Assembly (NCBI GenBank): GCA_947428835.1
Contig: CANENE010000007.1
Span: forward strand, 1-64,000
Length of the DNA: 64,000 bases
Source of the DNA: an uncultured bacterium
GTDB taxonomy: Bacteria > Cyanobacteriota > Vampirovibrionia > Gastranaerophilales > Gastranaerophilaceae
Direction: 5' to 3'
Of this stretch, positions 26,503 through 36,320 are shown one piece after another (within the stretch, counting starts at the first letter, position 1; every line of letters starts with the position of its first letter). The notes under the pieces are model-generated. The model saw only the letters and a list, made by a program, of their open reading frames with translations, was not told where the DNA came from and made no database searches. Made by a program: the position numbers and the translations under genes.

Positions 26503-27624
26503 TTAATTCTCGTTGTTGTTTTTCTTATTTTCTTTAACAACTTCTTGAATTTTTGCTTGTTCTTGTTTTGATGTCTTTTTAAGTTTATAAACAAATATAA
26601 GAATTTCCGCTATTGCTTTATATAAATCAGGCGGAATTGGCCTATCTACTTCTACGAGCTTGAATAGCGCTCTTGCAACAGGAGGGTTTTCAATAACAGG
26701 AATTCCATATTTAACAGCAATTTCTTTGATTTTTCTTGCGAATAACTCTGTTCCTTTTGCAACCAAAACAGGGGATTCCATAGTTTTTGCATCATATTTA
26801 ATAGCACATGCCACATGGGTTGGATTTGTTACAACAAAATCGCAGGTGGTTACAGCATCCATCATTTTTTGCTGCAAAAGCTGCTGTCGTCTTTGACGAA
26901 GTGCAGCTTTGACGTTGGGGTCACCTTCCTGATTTTTGTATTCATCTTTAACTTCCTTAAACGACATCTTTTGATCTTGTAGAAATTTCCATTTGGTCAC
27001 ACCATAATCTGCCGCCGCAATAATCAAAAAGGCAATACCCGCTTTAATTACAAAATCAAGTATTAAAGAACCAAATTGGATTAAAATTGCAAAATGATTG
27101 TCGACAGCTGCAAGCATCAAAATCTGCTCAAAATGTGAAGTATAGACAATATAACCGATAATGCCCAAAATTATAACTTTTGCAATATTTTTAAATAAGT
27201 CAAACAGGGTCTTTGGGCTGACTAAATTTTTAAAGTATTTGGTCGGATTAAATTTTTCTGCACTAAATTCCATAGGCTTTGTCGTAAATAATGGCCCTAT
27301 TTGCACCATATCACCCAAAATTCCGACAAAAGAAGCCAAAAACAAGATAGGAAGCAAAATAAGCGCCGTTGGAATTACTGTTTTAAAAAACATATATGCA
27401 TAGCCGATTTCATCTAAATGTTTATTTGGAATTTGCTCATAAATCCCTGCAAAAAGAGCACTTAATTGACCCCAAATAATAGGCCCAAGCAGGTAAATTG
27501 CGCTAAACATAATAATTATAGCAATAGCCACAGATAAATCCTTGGATTTAACTACCTGACCATCCTGCCTTGCTTTTCTTAGCTTTTGCTGGCTTGCCTC
27601 AAATTGTTTATTCTCATCACCCAT
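26503..27624 (-). CDS. flhB: FlhB-type export apparatus protein
   Basis: This 373-aa protein has four hydrophobic spans in the first 210 residues and a cytoplasmic C-terminal domain with the autocleavage motif NPTH near residue 267, followed by VLVAKG and PVARALFKLV. FlhB switches substrate specificity of the flagellar type III export machine. The N-terminal start (QFEASQQKLRKARQDGQV) is that of flagellar FlhB. No other flagellar gene lies in the window. It begins 3 bases after the stop of the HerA-CarD gene, so the two are probably one transcript. Confidence 0.93.
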   Translation of the reverse strand: MGDENKQFEASQQKLRKARQDGQVVKSKDLSVAIAIIIMFSAIYLLGPIIWGQLSALFAGIYEQIPNKHLDEIGYAYMFFKTVIPTALILLPILFLASFVGILGDMVQIGPLFTTKPMEFSAEKFNPTKYFKNLVSPKTLFDLFKNIAKVIILGIIGYIVYTSHFEQILMLAAVDNHFAILIQFGSLILDFVIKAGIAFLIIAAADYGVTKWKFLQDQKMSFKEVKDEYKNQEGDPNVKAALRQRRQQLLQQKMMDAVTTCDFVVTNPTHVACAIKYDAKTMESPVLVAKGTELFARKIKEIAVKYGIPVIENPPVARALFKLVEVDRPIPPDLYKAIAEILIFVYKLKKTSKQEQAKIQEVVKENKKNNNEN

Positions 27625-27627
27625 TTG

Positions 27628-30600
27628 CTATTGCTCTAGCTTAATATCTGCAACAACCGGATCAAGAAGCTTTTTACCTGCTTCGTTAAATTCAATTTGC
27701 AAAAGTTGTCTTTGCTCGTATTGTATTGTTTTAACAACTTTTCCTGTACCATATTTCTTGTGACTGACGATTGATCCTACTTCGTAAACTTGCGTGTTCA
27801 TTTTATCGGTTTTGATTTCTTCTTTAAAAATCGGAAGATCTTCATTTTCATTAGCTTTATTGGTTAAAATATTTTCATCTATTTTTGTTTCTTCATCAAT
27901 TTTAAGCTCTATGATTTCTTGATTCGATTGCTCATTTATAATTTGTTCAAAACTTTCATTAATTGAATTTCCTGCAACTAAAGACAAATCAATATCATCG
28001 CTTTGTATATCAATTTCTTCATCATTTGCAAGTTCAATTGCATTTGTATCTTCTTTATTTTCCTCTGATTCTTTCAATTCATCTACAGTTTCAGGCTTTG
28101 CATCTTGTATGGTTTCTATTGAATCTGTATTTTCAACAATTTCTGCACTTTTGGGATTTTCTTCTTTATTTATTATAATTTCATCATCAATATGTGCTTG
28201 AAGCGCAGCCTCTTGAAGATTTTGAGCAAATGTTTCTTCTGTGTCTTTATTATTATCCTGATTATTTTCTTCTTCAGCAATTTCTATAGTCTCTGAAACT
28301 TCCAGGTTCATTTCATTAACTGAGTCTTGCACATTTTGTATATTAGTATTTTCAGCTATAGCATTTTGCTCATCTTGAATTTGAACATCATCAGAAATAT
28401 TTAATACAGCATCATTTGAAATTAATTCAACCCCAGTATCAGCTTCTAAAGGCTCTTCTATTTTGTTATCTTCCTGTTTATATTGTTCAATTTTATCTTG
28501 ACTATCTTGGTCACTAATGGGAGCTGATTCACCATTTTGAGTTTTGTATTCAACATTATCAACAAGAACAGTTTTTTGTTCGCTGCTTTCACCAAGCACC
28601 TCAGAACCATTTTGAAGTTCCACCTGTTCAAGATTATTTCTCAAGGCTTCTTCAAAGTCATCAACTATAAGCTCTTCTTCCTTTGAAATATTTTCAAATT
28701 CTTTGGGCTTAATGTCTTCTTCAGGATTGTCATTTTCTTCTTGTATTTGTAAATTTTCTTGAGGTTCTTTGTTATCTTCCTCTATTTCAATATCTTCTTG
28801 ATTGAATTCTTCTATTTCAGAAGCTTTTTGATTTTCTTCAATATCTTCATCCATTTCGGTTATTTCTTGACTTGCTTCAAAAAAATCTAATTCTTCATCA
28901 GATAAATTCGCCTCATTGTTTTGGATTTCAGACTTGTCATCCAATACTATATCTTCATTTTCTTCAGCACCTTGCAAGCTTTTTTGCTCGTCTATATTAT
29001 CTAAAACTGCTTCATCAAATATATTTTGGGGCTCTATGTCATTTTGCTTATTTTCTTCTCGAACTTCTTGAACTTCCCCAACAGTTTCAATATCATCTTG
29101 TGCAGGTGTTGATTCACCGGATTTATATTCTTCATCTTCTTCGATATTATTAGCCAAATTTTGTTTATATGATTCAACTTCTTCGGGTTCATCCAAATCA
29201 TCTTCAAACGACGTCTCTTGCTCTAACGTATTGCTGAAATCTTCTTCTAAAGTTTCTTTAGGTGCTTCAATTTCTCTATAAAAATCAACATCCAAATCAT
29301 CTTCAGAACCCAATTCTTCCAACAGAATTTTTGAATCTTTTGAAATATTATTCGCCTTAAGTTCAACAACCGGCTGAACATCTTCTTTAACAAAAGACAG
29401 GGCGATTTTTCTGTAGCTTGTTTTTTTGGTATTGTTATCTATTTCATAGTCTTTTACAAAATAGATAAAATTTTCCGTATCTTTACCAAATATAATGCAG
29501 CCTTCATTGATGGAACTAGAAAGACGTGAGTGCATTTCAATTAAATCTGTTCTTTGATACAAACTTGGAAGCAAAATATAGTTTTCGCAATTTTGCATCA
29601 AATATGGAAGTTTTTTCAAATTATAAGATACATTTGGAATGAATCTTATATTTTTCTTTTTGTTATATATTTTATTAATAAGTCCGATGTCAGAATTGTC
29701 ATCATTAATTCTAACAAACAGGTATACATCAGTCTTAATATCTTCGATTAAATTTTCAAAACATCTTTTTTGAAAAGCCGTATTCAAAGGCGATAAGTCA
29801 ACAATTGTAATTTTATTTTCTGCAATTGTTTTTAATAATACATTTTTATTTTTTGGATTATTTAGAAATACATTTTCTTCCTGGCATTTTTTAAGTCTTG
29901 CAATTAAAACCTGTATTTCGGCTCTATTAGTTGCACCCAATTGTACCTCTAAAACTTTTACAAAATTGTCAAAAGGTATAAAGCCGTCTTTTTGCACTTT
30001 GGCAAACTTTTTGAGTTGCGAAAGTATTTCCATACCCAGTGATTGAAATTCAAGACTTCCATCCGATAAAAACTTTCCAAAAACAAAATCCAAATTTGAA
30101 GCATTTAAAAGCATTTGAAAATCTTTAGAAGCTTTAATCTTTTTTGCGCCATCAATATCCATAACGCCTGTGAAATCAAGTATTACAGCATTCTTAATAT
30201 CTGATAAACCTTTTGCAATACTTATTGAAAGCTCACATGCCTTTTCTGCTTTATCTGCAAAAATTATTGGATTGTTGTTGAAAAAATCTTGTCTTATTTC
30301 AAAAGGCAAGTCGTTTTTGGTATTTATGCCAAATTCAAAAGTGGGGCTGTTTTCATTAATAAAGTTTTCAACTTCTTTTTGATTAATTTTAATAATTTCA
30401 CATTCTTTGCTTGGCGTGAAATTATCATAAGGGATAACTTCATCATTTTCGTTAATTTTATAGAATAGTTTTAATTTTGCAACATTTTGGGCTGTATCAA
30501 ATTTATCAGTAAAAAGCTCTATAACTTGCGCAAGGTATCTTTCATTTTCCGATTTGACCAATAATATATCAAAAAGCTTAATAACTTCCACTTTGGGATT

Positions 30601-30645
30601 ATAAAGTATTCTTATTATATTATTCAAAGCGTTAGCAACTTGCAT
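27628..30645 (-). CDS. HerA-like degenerate ATPase with acidic linker and C-terminal CarD-like domain
   Basis: A 1005-aa protein with three parts. Residues 1-110 resemble a HAS-barrel and 110-440 a HerA-type ATPase: VILDFTGVMD, TIVDLSPLN, and ILLPSLYQRTDLIEMHSRL then SSSINEGCIIFG. The expected P-loop (residues 126-138, IIFADKAEKACEL) has no GxxxxGK[ST], so ATP hydrolysis is doubtful. Residues ~455-935 are a low-complexity Glu/Asp/Asn/Gln-rich linker. The end, ~950-1005, is CarD/CdnL-like (VYEVGSIVSHKKYGTGKVV), a fold that contacts RNA polymerase or Mfd. CarD-like assignment is fair; HerA homology is my reading from motif order. It heads an operon with flhB. Confidence 0.7.
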   Translation of the reverse strand: MQVANALNNIIRILYNPKVEVIKLFDILLVKSENERYLAQVIELFTDKFDTAQNVAKLKLFYKINENDEVIPYDNFTPSKECEIIKINQKEVENFINENSPTFEFGINTKNDLPFEIRQDFFNNNPIIFADKAEKACELSISIAKGLSDIKNAVILDFTGVMDIDGAKKIKASKDFQMLLNASNLDFVFGKFLSDGSLEFQSLGMEILSQLKKFAKVQKDGFIPFDNFVKVLEVQLGATNRAEIQVLIARLKKCQEENVFLNNPKNKNVLLKTIAENKITIVDLSPLNTAFQKRCFENLIEDIKTDVYLFVRINDDNSDIGLINKIYNKKKNIRFIPNVSYNLKKLPYLMQNCENYILLPSLYQRTDLIEMHSRLSSSINEGCIIFGKDTENFIYFVKDYEIDNNTKKTSYRKIALSFVKEDVQPVVELKANNISKDSKILLEELGSEDDLDVDFYREIEAPKETLEEDFSNTLEQETSFEDDLDEPEEVESYKQNLANNIEEDEEYKSGESTPAQDDIETVGEVQEVREENKQNDIEPQNIFDEAVLDNIDEQKSLQGAEENEDIVLDDKSEIQNNEANLSDEELDFFEASQEITEMDEDIEENQKASEIEEFNQEDIEIEEDNKEPQENLQIQEENDNPEEDIKPKEFENISKEEELIVDDFEEALRNNLEQVELQNGSEVLGESSEQKTVLVDNVEYKTQNGESAPISDQDSQDKIEQYKQEDNKIEEPLEADTGVELISNDAVLNISDDVQIQDEQNAIAENTNIQNVQDSVNEMNLEVSETIEIAEEENNQDNNKDTEETFAQNLQEAALQAHIDDEIIINKEENPKSAEIVENTDSIETIQDAKPETVDELKESEENKEDTNAIELANDEEIDIQSDDIDLSLVAGNSINESFEQIINEQSNQEIIELKIDEETKIDENILTNKANENEDLPIFKEEIKTDKMNTQVYEVGSIVSHKKYGTGKVVKTIQYEQRQLLQIEFNEAGKKLLDPVVADIKLEQ

Positions 30646-33359: not shown

Positions 33360-36320
33360 ATGGAAAATGAATTTAACGCGCGCAATGCGCTTAGGTCCAA
33401 TTGCGCAAAAATGGGGTTTTCTCTTATAGAGATATTAATTAGTTTGATTATAATTTCTCTTCTTGTTGCAGCATTCACACCGATTATCACAAAGAAATTG
33501 AAAGCATCAGATATTTCAATAGGCTCATTTGGTAATGGCGGAAATGTCAATATGACATTAGAAAGACAGGTGACAAAAGAAGACTGCGACAAATATGATG
33601 CTCTATTTATCCCGGCCAGCTTTAATGGAGGACAAAGAAATTTATGTGTTACTAAGTACAATATGGGAGATAATGACCTTCCTTTAGCAGACAGTGTAAA
33701 GAAACTTTCAGCCGGAAACACATGTTCCGATAAAGATATGGGTAATTGTTGCTGGCAAGGTAAAACTGCAGGAACTTGCGGCAGCAGCGGAAATGGAGAT
33801 GGAGATTATTCGGGATGTAATAGAACCGTATGTCAATTCCAAGCGGCAAACGCTTCTTGTGCGTCTTTTGCTCCAAACAACGAAAACGAAGGAAAATGGA
33901 GATTACCCAACAAAGAAGAGCTCAACAACTGGGGAAGTAACCTGATATCCATAAACAACAACAAAGGAAAAGAAGGTTTGCAGCTATGTGATTATACAGA
34001 TGCAACATCAGGGCTTGTGCAATGTACAAGCGGGATGGGTCTTTGCAAAGGATCTTTAACGCAAGATTGCGGACCGCACAATTTCTGGTCGGGCACGCAA
34101 TCGGGAGATGACACACAATATTATACGCCTCGCATAAAACAAGGAAAGTTTGAAGCAATGAATTTAGCTTACAGTGCTGCAGGTAGTGCAAGGTGCGTAC
34201 TTGACAGTATGACAGTAGATATATCGGAACTTCCCAATGGAAATGGAATTAAAGATCCGACAGTAAATCCTTTTTATGGGGAACCCAAAGACCAGGCAGA
34301 CTGCGACAAGATTGTTGCAATATTTATTGACAAAAAAATGTCAGGGGCAAATCGTAATATTTGTGTAAGTAAATATAATGCAGGAGACGCAGGGCCTGAC
34401 GGATTTGGACCTCCAATACCACAAAATTTTACGCAATATATTATAAGCATCGGACAAACTTGTCCATATCCGGGGTATTGCTGTTGGAAAGGAAAAACTG
34501 CAGGCACTTGCGGTTTGGATGGCAATGCGGGAGCAAATTACAGCGGCTGTAACAGGACAGTATGCCAATGGAAAGCTGCCAATTCCGCCTGCAGAGAATA
34601 CAATGCTTTTGGAGCAACGGCAGTTGGTGCCTGGAGGCTTCCAACTCAGGCAGAATTCAGTGTTTGGGCACAATATATGGATAAAATTAACAATAATCAA
34701 GGAACGAACGGTCTGCAGTTATGCTTTGAAAGCACAGGCAAAGGAGCGGTAAGATGCACTTACACAACAGGCTGCCCGGGATCAACCAACAGTTATTGCT
34801 TCCCGCACACTTTGCACTCAAGCACATATGGGGCCAGATTAAGAAATGATGCCCTAACAACAGAAGACAGTGGAGATTACACAGCAAGCGTCAGATGCGT
34901 ATATGACGGTATAACTAAAGCAAATAACTATGAAGAAGATTTAAGCGACTATGATGATAGCAACGCTCCAAAGGATGAACCCAAATCACAAGCGGATTGC
35001 GATAAATTAACTGCAATTTTCGTTCACAAAAAGTATATAGGAGGAATGAGAAACCTATGTGTAAGCAAATACAATGTAGGAGATAGCGGTCCAAGCGGCT
35101 CGGGTCCTGCAATTCCTTCGACATATGCAAGCTACACAATGAATGTCGGGCAAACTTGCCCATACCCGGGTTATTGTTGCTGGAAAGGCAAAACTGCAGG
35201 CACTTGCGGTATTACAGGAAATGCCGGGGCAAATTACAGCGGCTGTAACAGGACAGTATGCCAATGGAATGTAGCAAATGAAAGCTGTCTAACCTGGACT
35301 GCAGGAGGAAAAACCTCTGTTGGAGCCTGGAGACTTCCGACACAAGCAGAACTTACAACTATGACAAATTATATGAATATTGTAAATAATGATAGAGGAA
35401 AAGATGGTCTGCAACTATGTTTTGAAGGCGCAAACAATGGCTCCGTGCAGTGTACATATACAGAAAAATGTTTAGGCGCATCTAGAGCATATTGTTTTCC
35501 TCACACTTTGCATTCAAGCACATATGGAGTCAGATTAAGAAATGACGCTATGGTAACAGAAGCTGATAATTACACTGCAAGTGCAAGATGTGTTTACGAT
35601 GGAACTGTTCGAAAAGTTGAAGAAGTAACCGACTACGATGAAACAGGTGCTGCCCCTGATGAGCCAAAATCACAAGCAGATTGTGATAAATTGACTGCTA
35701 TATTTATTCACAAAAAATATTCAGGCTCCTCAAGAAATATTTGCGTAAGCAAATACAATGTAGGAGACAGTGGTCCAAGCGGCTCCGGCCCTGCAATTCC
35801 AACAGAATACAAACAATACTTGGTAAGCACCAGAACAGGCTGTAGTAAATCAGGATATTGTTGTTGGAAAGGAATTACATCAGGAACCTGCGGAATAGTC
35901 GGAAATATGGGAAGCGATTATAACGGCTGCGGAAGAGTAGTCTGTCAGTGGAACATCGCAGATGCTGCATGCCGCGCCTATACCGCAAACGGAAAAACAC
36001 AAGCAGGTTACTGGAGGCTTCCAAATAGTTTTGAACTTACCACTTGGGCCAATCATATTGATATTTTAAGCAAAAATCGAGGGAAAGACGGTCTTCAATT
36101 ATGCGTAGAAAATGGCACGGCAGCAGGTCATGTCCAATGTACATATAACCAAAATTGCAGCGGTGCAGGTGGTGCATACTGTTTCCCTCATACTTTGTGG
36201 TCTTCAACATCGACCGGAAGCAATGTATATTTCAGACTCAGAAATACAGATTCGGAAAGTCTTGCAAATACCTATACAGCAAGTGCAAGATGTGTTTATG
36301 ACGGGTCAAAAGCAAACTAG
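33360..36320 (+). CDS. Cys-rich four-repeat protein with prepilin N-terminus
   Basis: A 986-aa protein. Residues 1-19 are a prepilin leader ending in G19; mature F20 and E24 match the PilD/PilE cleavage-methylation rule, and GFSLIEILISLIIISLLVAA forms the pilin helix. Four repeats of about 230 aa follow, starting near bases 33579, 34287, 34984 and 35668. Each has QADCDK, RN-[IL]-CVSKYN, CCWKGKTAGTCG, CNRTVCQW, W-R-L-P, GLQLC and TASARCVYDG, and at least ten cysteines. The WRLP..E..W signature recalls DUF1566/FISUMP modules of surface proteins. It is probably an exported pseudopilin-anchored adhesin or filament protein. The neighbouring XRE gene is divergent. Confidence 0.8.
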   Translation: MENEFNARNALRSNCAKMGFSLIEILISLIIISLLVAAFTPIITKKLKASDISIGSFGNGGNVNMTLERQVTKEDCDKYDALFIPASFNGGQRNLCVTKYNMGDNDLPLADSVKKLSAGNTCSDKDMGNCCWQGKTAGTCGSSGNGDGDYSGCNRTVCQFQAANASCASFAPNNENEGKWRLPNKEELNNWGSNLISINNNKGKEGLQLCDYTDATSGLVQCTSGMGLCKGSLTQDCGPHNFWSGTQSGDDTQYYTPRIKQGKFEAMNLAYSAAGSARCVLDSMTVDISELPNGNGIKDPTVNPFYGEPKDQADCDKIVAIFIDKKMSGANRNICVSKYNAGDAGPDGFGPPIPQNFTQYIISIGQTCPYPGYCCWKGKTAGTCGLDGNAGANYSGCNRTVCQWKAANSACREYNAFGATAVGAWRLPTQAEFSVWAQYMDKINNNQGTNGLQLCFESTGKGAVRCTYTTGCPGSTNSYCFPHTLHSSTYGARLRNDALTTEDSGDYTASVRCVYDGITKANNYEEDLSDYDDSNAPKDEPKSQADCDKLTAIFVHKKYIGGMRNLCVSKYNVGDSGPSGSGPAIPSTYASYTMNVGQTCPYPGYCCWKGKTAGTCGITGNAGANYSGCNRTVCQWNVANESCLTWTAGGKTSVGAWRLPTQAELTTMTNYMNIVNNDRGKDGLQLCFEGANNGSVQCTYTEKCLGASRAYCFPHTLHSSTYGVRLRNDAMVTEADNYTASARCVYDGTVRKVEEVTDYDETGAAPDEPKSQADCDKLTAIFIHKKYSGSSRNICVSKYNVGDSGPSGSGPAIPTEYKQYLVSTRTGCSKSGYCCWKGITSGTCGIVGNMGSDYNGCGRVVCQWNIADAACRAYTANGKTQAGYWRLPNSFELTTWANHIDILSKNRGKDGLQLCVENGTAAGHVQCTYNQNCSGAGGAYCFPHTLWSSTSTGSNVYFRLRNTDSESLANTYTASARCVYDGSKAN
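34287..36312 (+). repeat. Tandem coding repeats of about 690 bp
   Basis: Units 2, 3 and 4 of the pseudopilin-like gene start near 34287, 34984 and 35668. The DNA is strongly similar between units 2 and 3 (for example the CTGCAGGCACTTGCGGT stretch near 34498 and 35195). Unit 1 (from about 33579) is more diverged. Confidence 0.8.

Follow-up and report, generated by a model that had tools for sequence, protein, structure and literature searches.

Gene and genome context

The window analysed here comprises 64,000 nucleotides of contig CANENE010000007.1 (assembly GCA_947428835.1) from an uncultured bacterium of the family Gastranaerophilaceae, whose 1.8 Mb genome is held in 24 contigs and whose named relatives in the public collection belong to Candidatus Gastranaerophilales, non-photosynthetic Cyanobacteriota that live in the gut. 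On the minus strand lies an open reading frame of 1005 codons plus stop, from an ATG at 30645 to a TAG at 27630-27628, exactly as delimited in the original prediction, and the motifs named there are present in the encoded protein. The protein is predicted to join a degenerate HerA-like domain, through a long acidic linker, to a C-terminal Tudor domain of the type found in the PcrA and UvrD helicases (Table 1), and its gene is referred to below as the pseudo-HerA gene. The upstream flank contains three tRNA genes and tuf on the opposite strand, and the downstream adjacency to flhB is found only within the genus of the window genome. A promoter and terminator scan returned counts close to the shuffled expectation.

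Table 1. Features of the pseudo-HerA gene and its downstream neighbour (window coordinates).
Feature	Residues	Position	Strand	Basis or remark
Whole gene, pseudo-HerA / acidic linker / Tudor	1005 aa	27628..30645	-	
N-terminal beta-barrel, predicted HAS-barrel-like part of the HerA fold	~1-86	30388..30645	-	AlphaFold2 strands, Foldseek
Predicted HerA-type RecA-like core with degenerate catalytic motifs	~101-405	29431..30345	-	Profile, AlphaFold2, Foldseek, motif inspection
Lost P-loop site, FADKAEKACELSISIAKG	129-146	30208..30261	-	Alignment with 4d2i and 28-member alignment
Acidic low-complexity linker	~406-934	27844..29430	-	Composition, low pLDDT
LPIF motif	937-940	27826..27837	-	[LVI]P[IV][YF] in relatives
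PcrA/UvrD-type Tudor domain	952-1005	27631..27792	-	PF21196, AlphaFold2, Foldseek
flhB		26503..27624	-	Downstream gene; start 3 bp past the pseudo-HerA stop codon

An N-terminal HerA-like domain that has lost its ATP-site motifs

The claim that the N-terminal part carries a HerA-type fold was borne out by several lines of evidence. The AlphaFold2 model of residues 1-435 reached a pLDDT of 77.6 and a pTM of 0.76, with barrel strands at residues 2-7, 10-15, 27-32, 35-46, 54-64, 70-72 and 83-86. When this model was compared with the PDB by Foldseek, the best 50 matches listed were all HerA or HerA-like assemblies (TdpAB, SIR2/HerA, DUF4297-HerA), with TM-scores of 0.44-0.64 on the query; the best E-value was 1.5e-12 at a probability of 1.00, and the match to HerA was full-length. 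Additionally, a profile of residues 1-408 built from the 28-member alignment matched Sulfolobus HerA (4d2i, E 3.3e-7), and DUF87 (PF01935) was matched by 14 of the 28 alignment members, with the curated cut-off exceeded in several relatives. A Pfam search with the window protein alone gave no HerA or DUF87 match, PHROGs yielded a single weak hit, to a family whose function is unknown, and profile-profile comparison with three intact HerA proteins gave only 30% probability. Of the HerA landmarks, the D-x-x-G-[DE]-[YF] and hhDLS strands survive, as does the terminal hxxGxxT...P segment. Combined, the modelling results support a HerA fold for residues ~1-405. Intact HerA is present in two other families of the class (f8 and f12) and was not found in sampled members of the window genome's own family, a pattern compatible with descent from the intact HerA of the class's other orders.

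The catalytic motifs, judged against intact HerA comparators, are gone. At the position of the HerA xATGSGKSNT motif, the window protein reads ADKAEKACEL and relatives read, for example, ADKETQKNNL; the Walker B (D/E)EAH position holds variable residues across the pseudo-HerA family, and the SQRP position reads NVSY, SVSH or similar. The original prediction of a P-loop site lacking GxxxxGK[ST] was upheld by inspection of the aligned site, and the motif [AG]xxxxGK[ST] was found nowhere else in the window protein and in none of 108 homologue loci, some of them overlapping. The P-loop glycines, the Ser/Thr, the Walker B Glu and SQRP are missing in every sampled member; therefore, by sequence, the N-terminal domain is a pseudo-ATPase throughout the sampled family, and we infer that the actual protein would not bind ATP.

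The reading that the protein is still an active or ATP-binding P-loop enzyme with an unorthodox site can draw on two aspartates, D157 and D283, that are invariant or nearly so, and on a Lys (in a QK pair) retained near the P-loop position in distant members. Set against the uniform loss of the catalytic landmarks, these residues leave such an enzyme only a slim chance.

A C-terminal Tudor domain of the PcrA/UvrD type

The C terminus had been taken for a CarD/CdnL module, an identity that has to be replaced. PF21196, the PcrA/UvrD Tudor family, scored 29.5 bits on the window protein against a curated cut-off of 23.9 and was matched by 29 of the 29 aligned sequences (one of them a PcrA helicase), whereas CarD_TRCF_RID (PF02559) stayed below its cut-off of 23, at 14.7 bits on the full length and 18.4 bits on the C-terminal part. 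The AlphaFold2 model of the last 54 residues had a pLDDT of about 90 or more, and Foldseek placed it closest to 5dma, the PcrA Tudor (TM-score 0.86 on the target), then 6yi2, 9dqs and 7egs, with 7egt next; the PDB sequences best matched by the Tudor profile were likewise UvrD/PcrA tails. A CarD identity was thus ruled out in favour of a PcrA/UvrD Tudor on the basis of the Pfam cut-offs and Foldseek. A profile was needed for this assignment, since single-sequence phmmer of the Tudor domain put false matches at the top (repetitive Tako8), the true ones being weak. No SF1 motor accompanies the domain, in that no Pfam helicase match was obtained in the window protein. The PcrA/UvrD Tudor is structurally akin to CarD but, in the cases studied, binds to a different site (PMC8318588).

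In Geobacillus stearothermophilus PcrA, mutation of H681, W684, K712 or L714 severely reduces RNA polymerase (RNAP) binding (PMC5397179). By alignment with UvrD, these residues correspond to H962, Y965, K992 and L994 of the window protein. At the position of H681, 94/103 homologue loci have His and 9/103 have Thr; an aromatic residue stands at that of W684 in all 103, and Lys or Arg at that of K712 in 97 of 97 scored. By alignment, then, most homologues retain the RNAP-contact residues or replace them conservatively.

The acidic linker and its short motifs

The long E/D-rich tether of the original prediction is real: the linker of the window protein spans about 550 residues, with 32% D/E, 7% K/R and 25% hydrophobic residues, and where it was modelled, from residue 404 on, AlphaFold2 pLDDT fell below 50. 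In 104 homologue readings its length ranged from 127 to 619 aa (median 334), with 23-43% Asp/Glu and low Lys/Arg.

Two short motifs (about 27826-27987, minus strand) sit within this otherwise variable segment. Residues 887-903 form a stretch conserved at the genus level and predicted to be helical, LxxIAxxSIDxSFExII, and the LPIF motif recurs in 93 of 94 homologues, as [LVI]P[IV][YF], 22-30 residues before the Tudor motif. Both are likely to be extra peptide docking sites.

Distribution, selection and gene neighbourhood

Conservation of the fusion in related genomes proved to be near-universal in sampled Gastranaerophilales. The relatives search recovered homologues from 56/57 of the order's genomes, and the single out-of-order genome was matched only via its PcrA Tudor. 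Among genomes of the same family, the fusion was found in 37 of 38 in the class-wide sample and 84 of 85 in the phylum-wide sample; outside the order, it was found in none of 79 and none of 109 genomes, respectively. A detectable pseudo-HerA gene is lacking from just two of the order's sampled genomes, G147, of the same family (99% complete, in 110 contigs), and G016, of the same genus (87% complete), reflecting either loss or an assembly gap.

Pairwise dN/dS was about 0.02-0.11 for the N domain (scorable pairs), about 0-0.2 for the Tudor domain and about 0.05-0.7 for the linker, which is less conserved than both ends. On these sequence comparisons, strong purifying selection acts on both the HerA part and the Tudor domain, so the gene is no pseudogene; the intact reading frame across the order and the low dN/dS rule out both a pseudogene and an artefact. 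Chance is excluded as the origin of the arrangement because the order of N domain, linker and Tudor recurs across the whole order and the N-domain dN/dS is low.

The gene neighbourhood differs by lineage and carries no consistent repair or transcription theme. In the window genus, the gene lies by tuf/tRNA genes and flhB, the latter directly after it in nearly every locus with enough contig; much of the remaining family has nadD-yqeK, and several other families have a yifB neighbour, with or without a 153-aa orphan.

In several of the order's families, this orphan, c7 (KNRFSIEGKFHRIIFQKGK...IPLYIWKGVTKHLGPI), usually precedes the pseudo-HerA gene by 20-65 bp (loci L033:964-1425, L057:1963-2421, L059:2971-3429 and others). 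It matched no Pfam family, and a class search for it, in a sample without c7-bearing families, was empty, the window genome included.

Candidate partners of the Tudor domain

The PcrA Tudor binds a beta-hairpin with the helicase interaction motif [VIL]-D-x-x-T-G-E-[VIL]-[VILT] in RpoB (within the SI1 insert) and in UvrB, and the two compete for it (PMC8318588). Structures are available for the UvrD C-terminal domain with UvrB (7egt) and on the E. coli RNAP lobe (7egs). The UvrB of the window genome contains a perfect copy of the motif, IDSMTGEIV, and the motif is also present in UvrB from three further genomes of the order. A degenerate DNA form of the motif picked out four proteins in the genome, named from their sequence as UvrB, a PBP-like protein, an AMP-ligase-like enzyme and bL17, and a reversed-motif control gave 0 matches; the motif is found in many unrelated proteins of relatives, and its presence alone is therefore weak evidence.

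The RpoB of the window genome (G000:C3:138961-142071) is a short, 1104-aa frame; it has no SI1-type TGE motif and is missing the SI1 stretch, which in other bacteria bears the motif for PcrA docking. The nearest motif-like stretch is VNRDSGEIK in its N-terminal region, where VNRDSGEIKEQEV partly resembles the helicase motif. Because RpoB lacks the motif while UvrB has a perfect copy, UvrB is the best-supported predicted partner and the transcription link drawn in the original prediction is plausible rather than proven, with RNAP a possible partner of the Tudor domain.

Exactly two PF21196 Tudor proteins are encoded in the genome, the window protein and an 838-aa frame that, where readable, is a PcrA/UvrD-type helicase. 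Since these are the only two and the other is helicase-like, direct competition with PcrA is possible; equally, the UvrB motif could serve PcrA alone.

Proposed role and alternatives

The architecture is drawn from sequence and structure prediction, from which we infer a mechanism. The protein would descend from a HerA translocase whose ring-type domain no longer binds or hydrolyses ATP and acts as a scaffold; by analogy with HerA, the N domain is assumed to be possibly still oligomeric and possibly still in touch with DNA. The long disordered acidic tether would present the Tudor domain, which would most likely dock on the beta-hairpin surfaces that recruit PcrA/UvrD, namely the UvrB motif and possibly a site on RNAP beta. 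As a result, repair and/or transcription complexes could be held together, or the protein could compete with PcrA for them. A non-catalytic, HerA-derived scaffold that competes with PcrA or localises it at UvrB and/or RNAP is a tentative reading, placed a little below an even chance. Its finer elements, namely the partner (UvrB favoured over RNAP), the oligomerisation and the competition with PcrA, are predictions. If a HerA ring is still formed, we conjecture that several Tudor arms per particle would provide high avidity. The more ambitious version, in which an order-wide, perhaps oligomeric dead-HerA hub uses Tudor arms on acidic tethers to occupy or cluster UvrB/RNAP sites and so regulates PcrA/UvrD recruitment, is somewhat unlikely; if true, it would imply control of transcription-coupled repair or R-loop removal. 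To our knowledge, such a hub would be the first HerA-derived pseudo-ATPase acting as a PcrA/UvrD-recruitment regulator.

The idea of an RNAP accessory factor, carried over from the original prediction, would have the Tudor domain on RNAP beta (on the beta1 domain in the manner of CarD/Mfd, or at a different lobe site) and the dead HerA on nucleic acid that lies upstream or is exiting, modulating transcription. The retained RNAP-contact residues, the placement of the UvrD C-terminal domain in 7egs, the stretch partly resembling the helicase motif in the RpoB N-terminal region and the weak score of the CarD-type model all point this way. However, that score is below the cut-off, the canonical motif is missing from RpoB, and CarD's second, DNA-binding domain is absent because the protein ends with the Tudor domain; this role is accordingly regarded as unlikely.

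A helper role in DNA end processing or phage defence alongside a nuclease or effector, as in HerA-NurA, HerA-SIR2 and HerA-DUF4297, is suggested by the fold, which is closest to exactly those HerA proteins among the Foldseek matches listed, but it is highly improbable given that all catalytic motifs are lost. NurA was detected in 0/41 high-quality genomes of the relatives set and in 1/56 overall (a weak fragment), control genomes being positive, so that a HerA-NurA resection role is unlikely. Most of the neighbours are housekeeping genes, and no nuclease or effector recurs among them; PADLOC gave only two isolated matches among the 28 members, and the vertical, order-wide presence is unlike that of a defence system; HerA-NurA and known defence systems were rejected on the lack of NurA and of any consistent PADLOC match. 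Least probable of all is a part in regulating flagellar or type III export, which is prompted by the position of the gene 3 bp upstream of flhB and by the regularity of this arrangement in the window genus. Other genera and families have nadD-yqeK or yifB in place of flhB, and a functional link to flhB was rejected because the neighbourhood differs between genera.

Relation to known systems

With the HerA translocase (4d2i; 8zis, 8xau and others), the window protein shares the barrel and RecA-like core fold as well as the D-x-x-G-[ED]-[YF] strand, the hhDLS strand and the hxxGxxT...P end motif. Unlike HerA, it lacks Walker A, the EEAH Walker B and SQRP and adds the linker and Tudor domain, and no NurA, SIR2 or DUF4297 partner was found near the gene. 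With the PcrA/UvrD tail (PF21196; 5dma, 6yi2, 7egs, 7egt, 9dqs), it shares the Tudor fold, its H/aromatic/K/L surface and its place at the extreme C terminus behind a disordered linker; the Tudor domain is joined here to a dead HerA, whereas in PcrA/UvrD it is joined to an SF1 motor, and the linker of the window protein is much longer and acidic. CarD/CdnL and the Mfd RID (PF02559) have a Tudor-like fold and a possible RNAP contact in common with it, but their structural match is weaker than that of PcrA/UvrD, and the helical DNA-binding domain that follows in CarD is missing here, where the protein ends. The DUF domain of EccC5 is likewise a catalytically degenerate ATPase fold of the broad FtsK/HerA clade (PMC11154593); it forms one part of a multi-ATPase secretion motor, whereas the window protein is a free-standing HerA with a Tudor domain.

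Searches for a HerA-Tudor fusion turned up no NCBIfam model, no catalogue entry and no paper in the open-licence literature, in keeping with the proposal of a new architecture, and the fusion is conserved across the order. The HerA and Tudor modules are each known; their combination, its order-wide conservation and the uniform loss of the catalytic motifs are undescribed in searchable sources. PcrA/UvrD shares one small Tudor domain among RNA polymerase, UvrB and other partners, and another protein bearing that docking domain, near-universal in the sampled order, would be a natural competitor or co-organiser and would give a view on the regulation of helicase recruitment. It is also a clear example of a hexameric DNA motor family that has yielded, apart from defence and secretion systems, a member both conserved and catalytically dead.

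Another large gene in the window

Elsewhere in the window, positions 33360-36320 of the plus strand encode a 986-aa prepilin-like protein with the N-terminal sequence GFSLIEILISLIIISLL, which would be an unusually large pseudopilin and is composed of about four tandem cysteine-rich units of ~200 aa (CDKL.AIF.HKKY.G..RN.CVSKYN.GD.GPSGSGP...).
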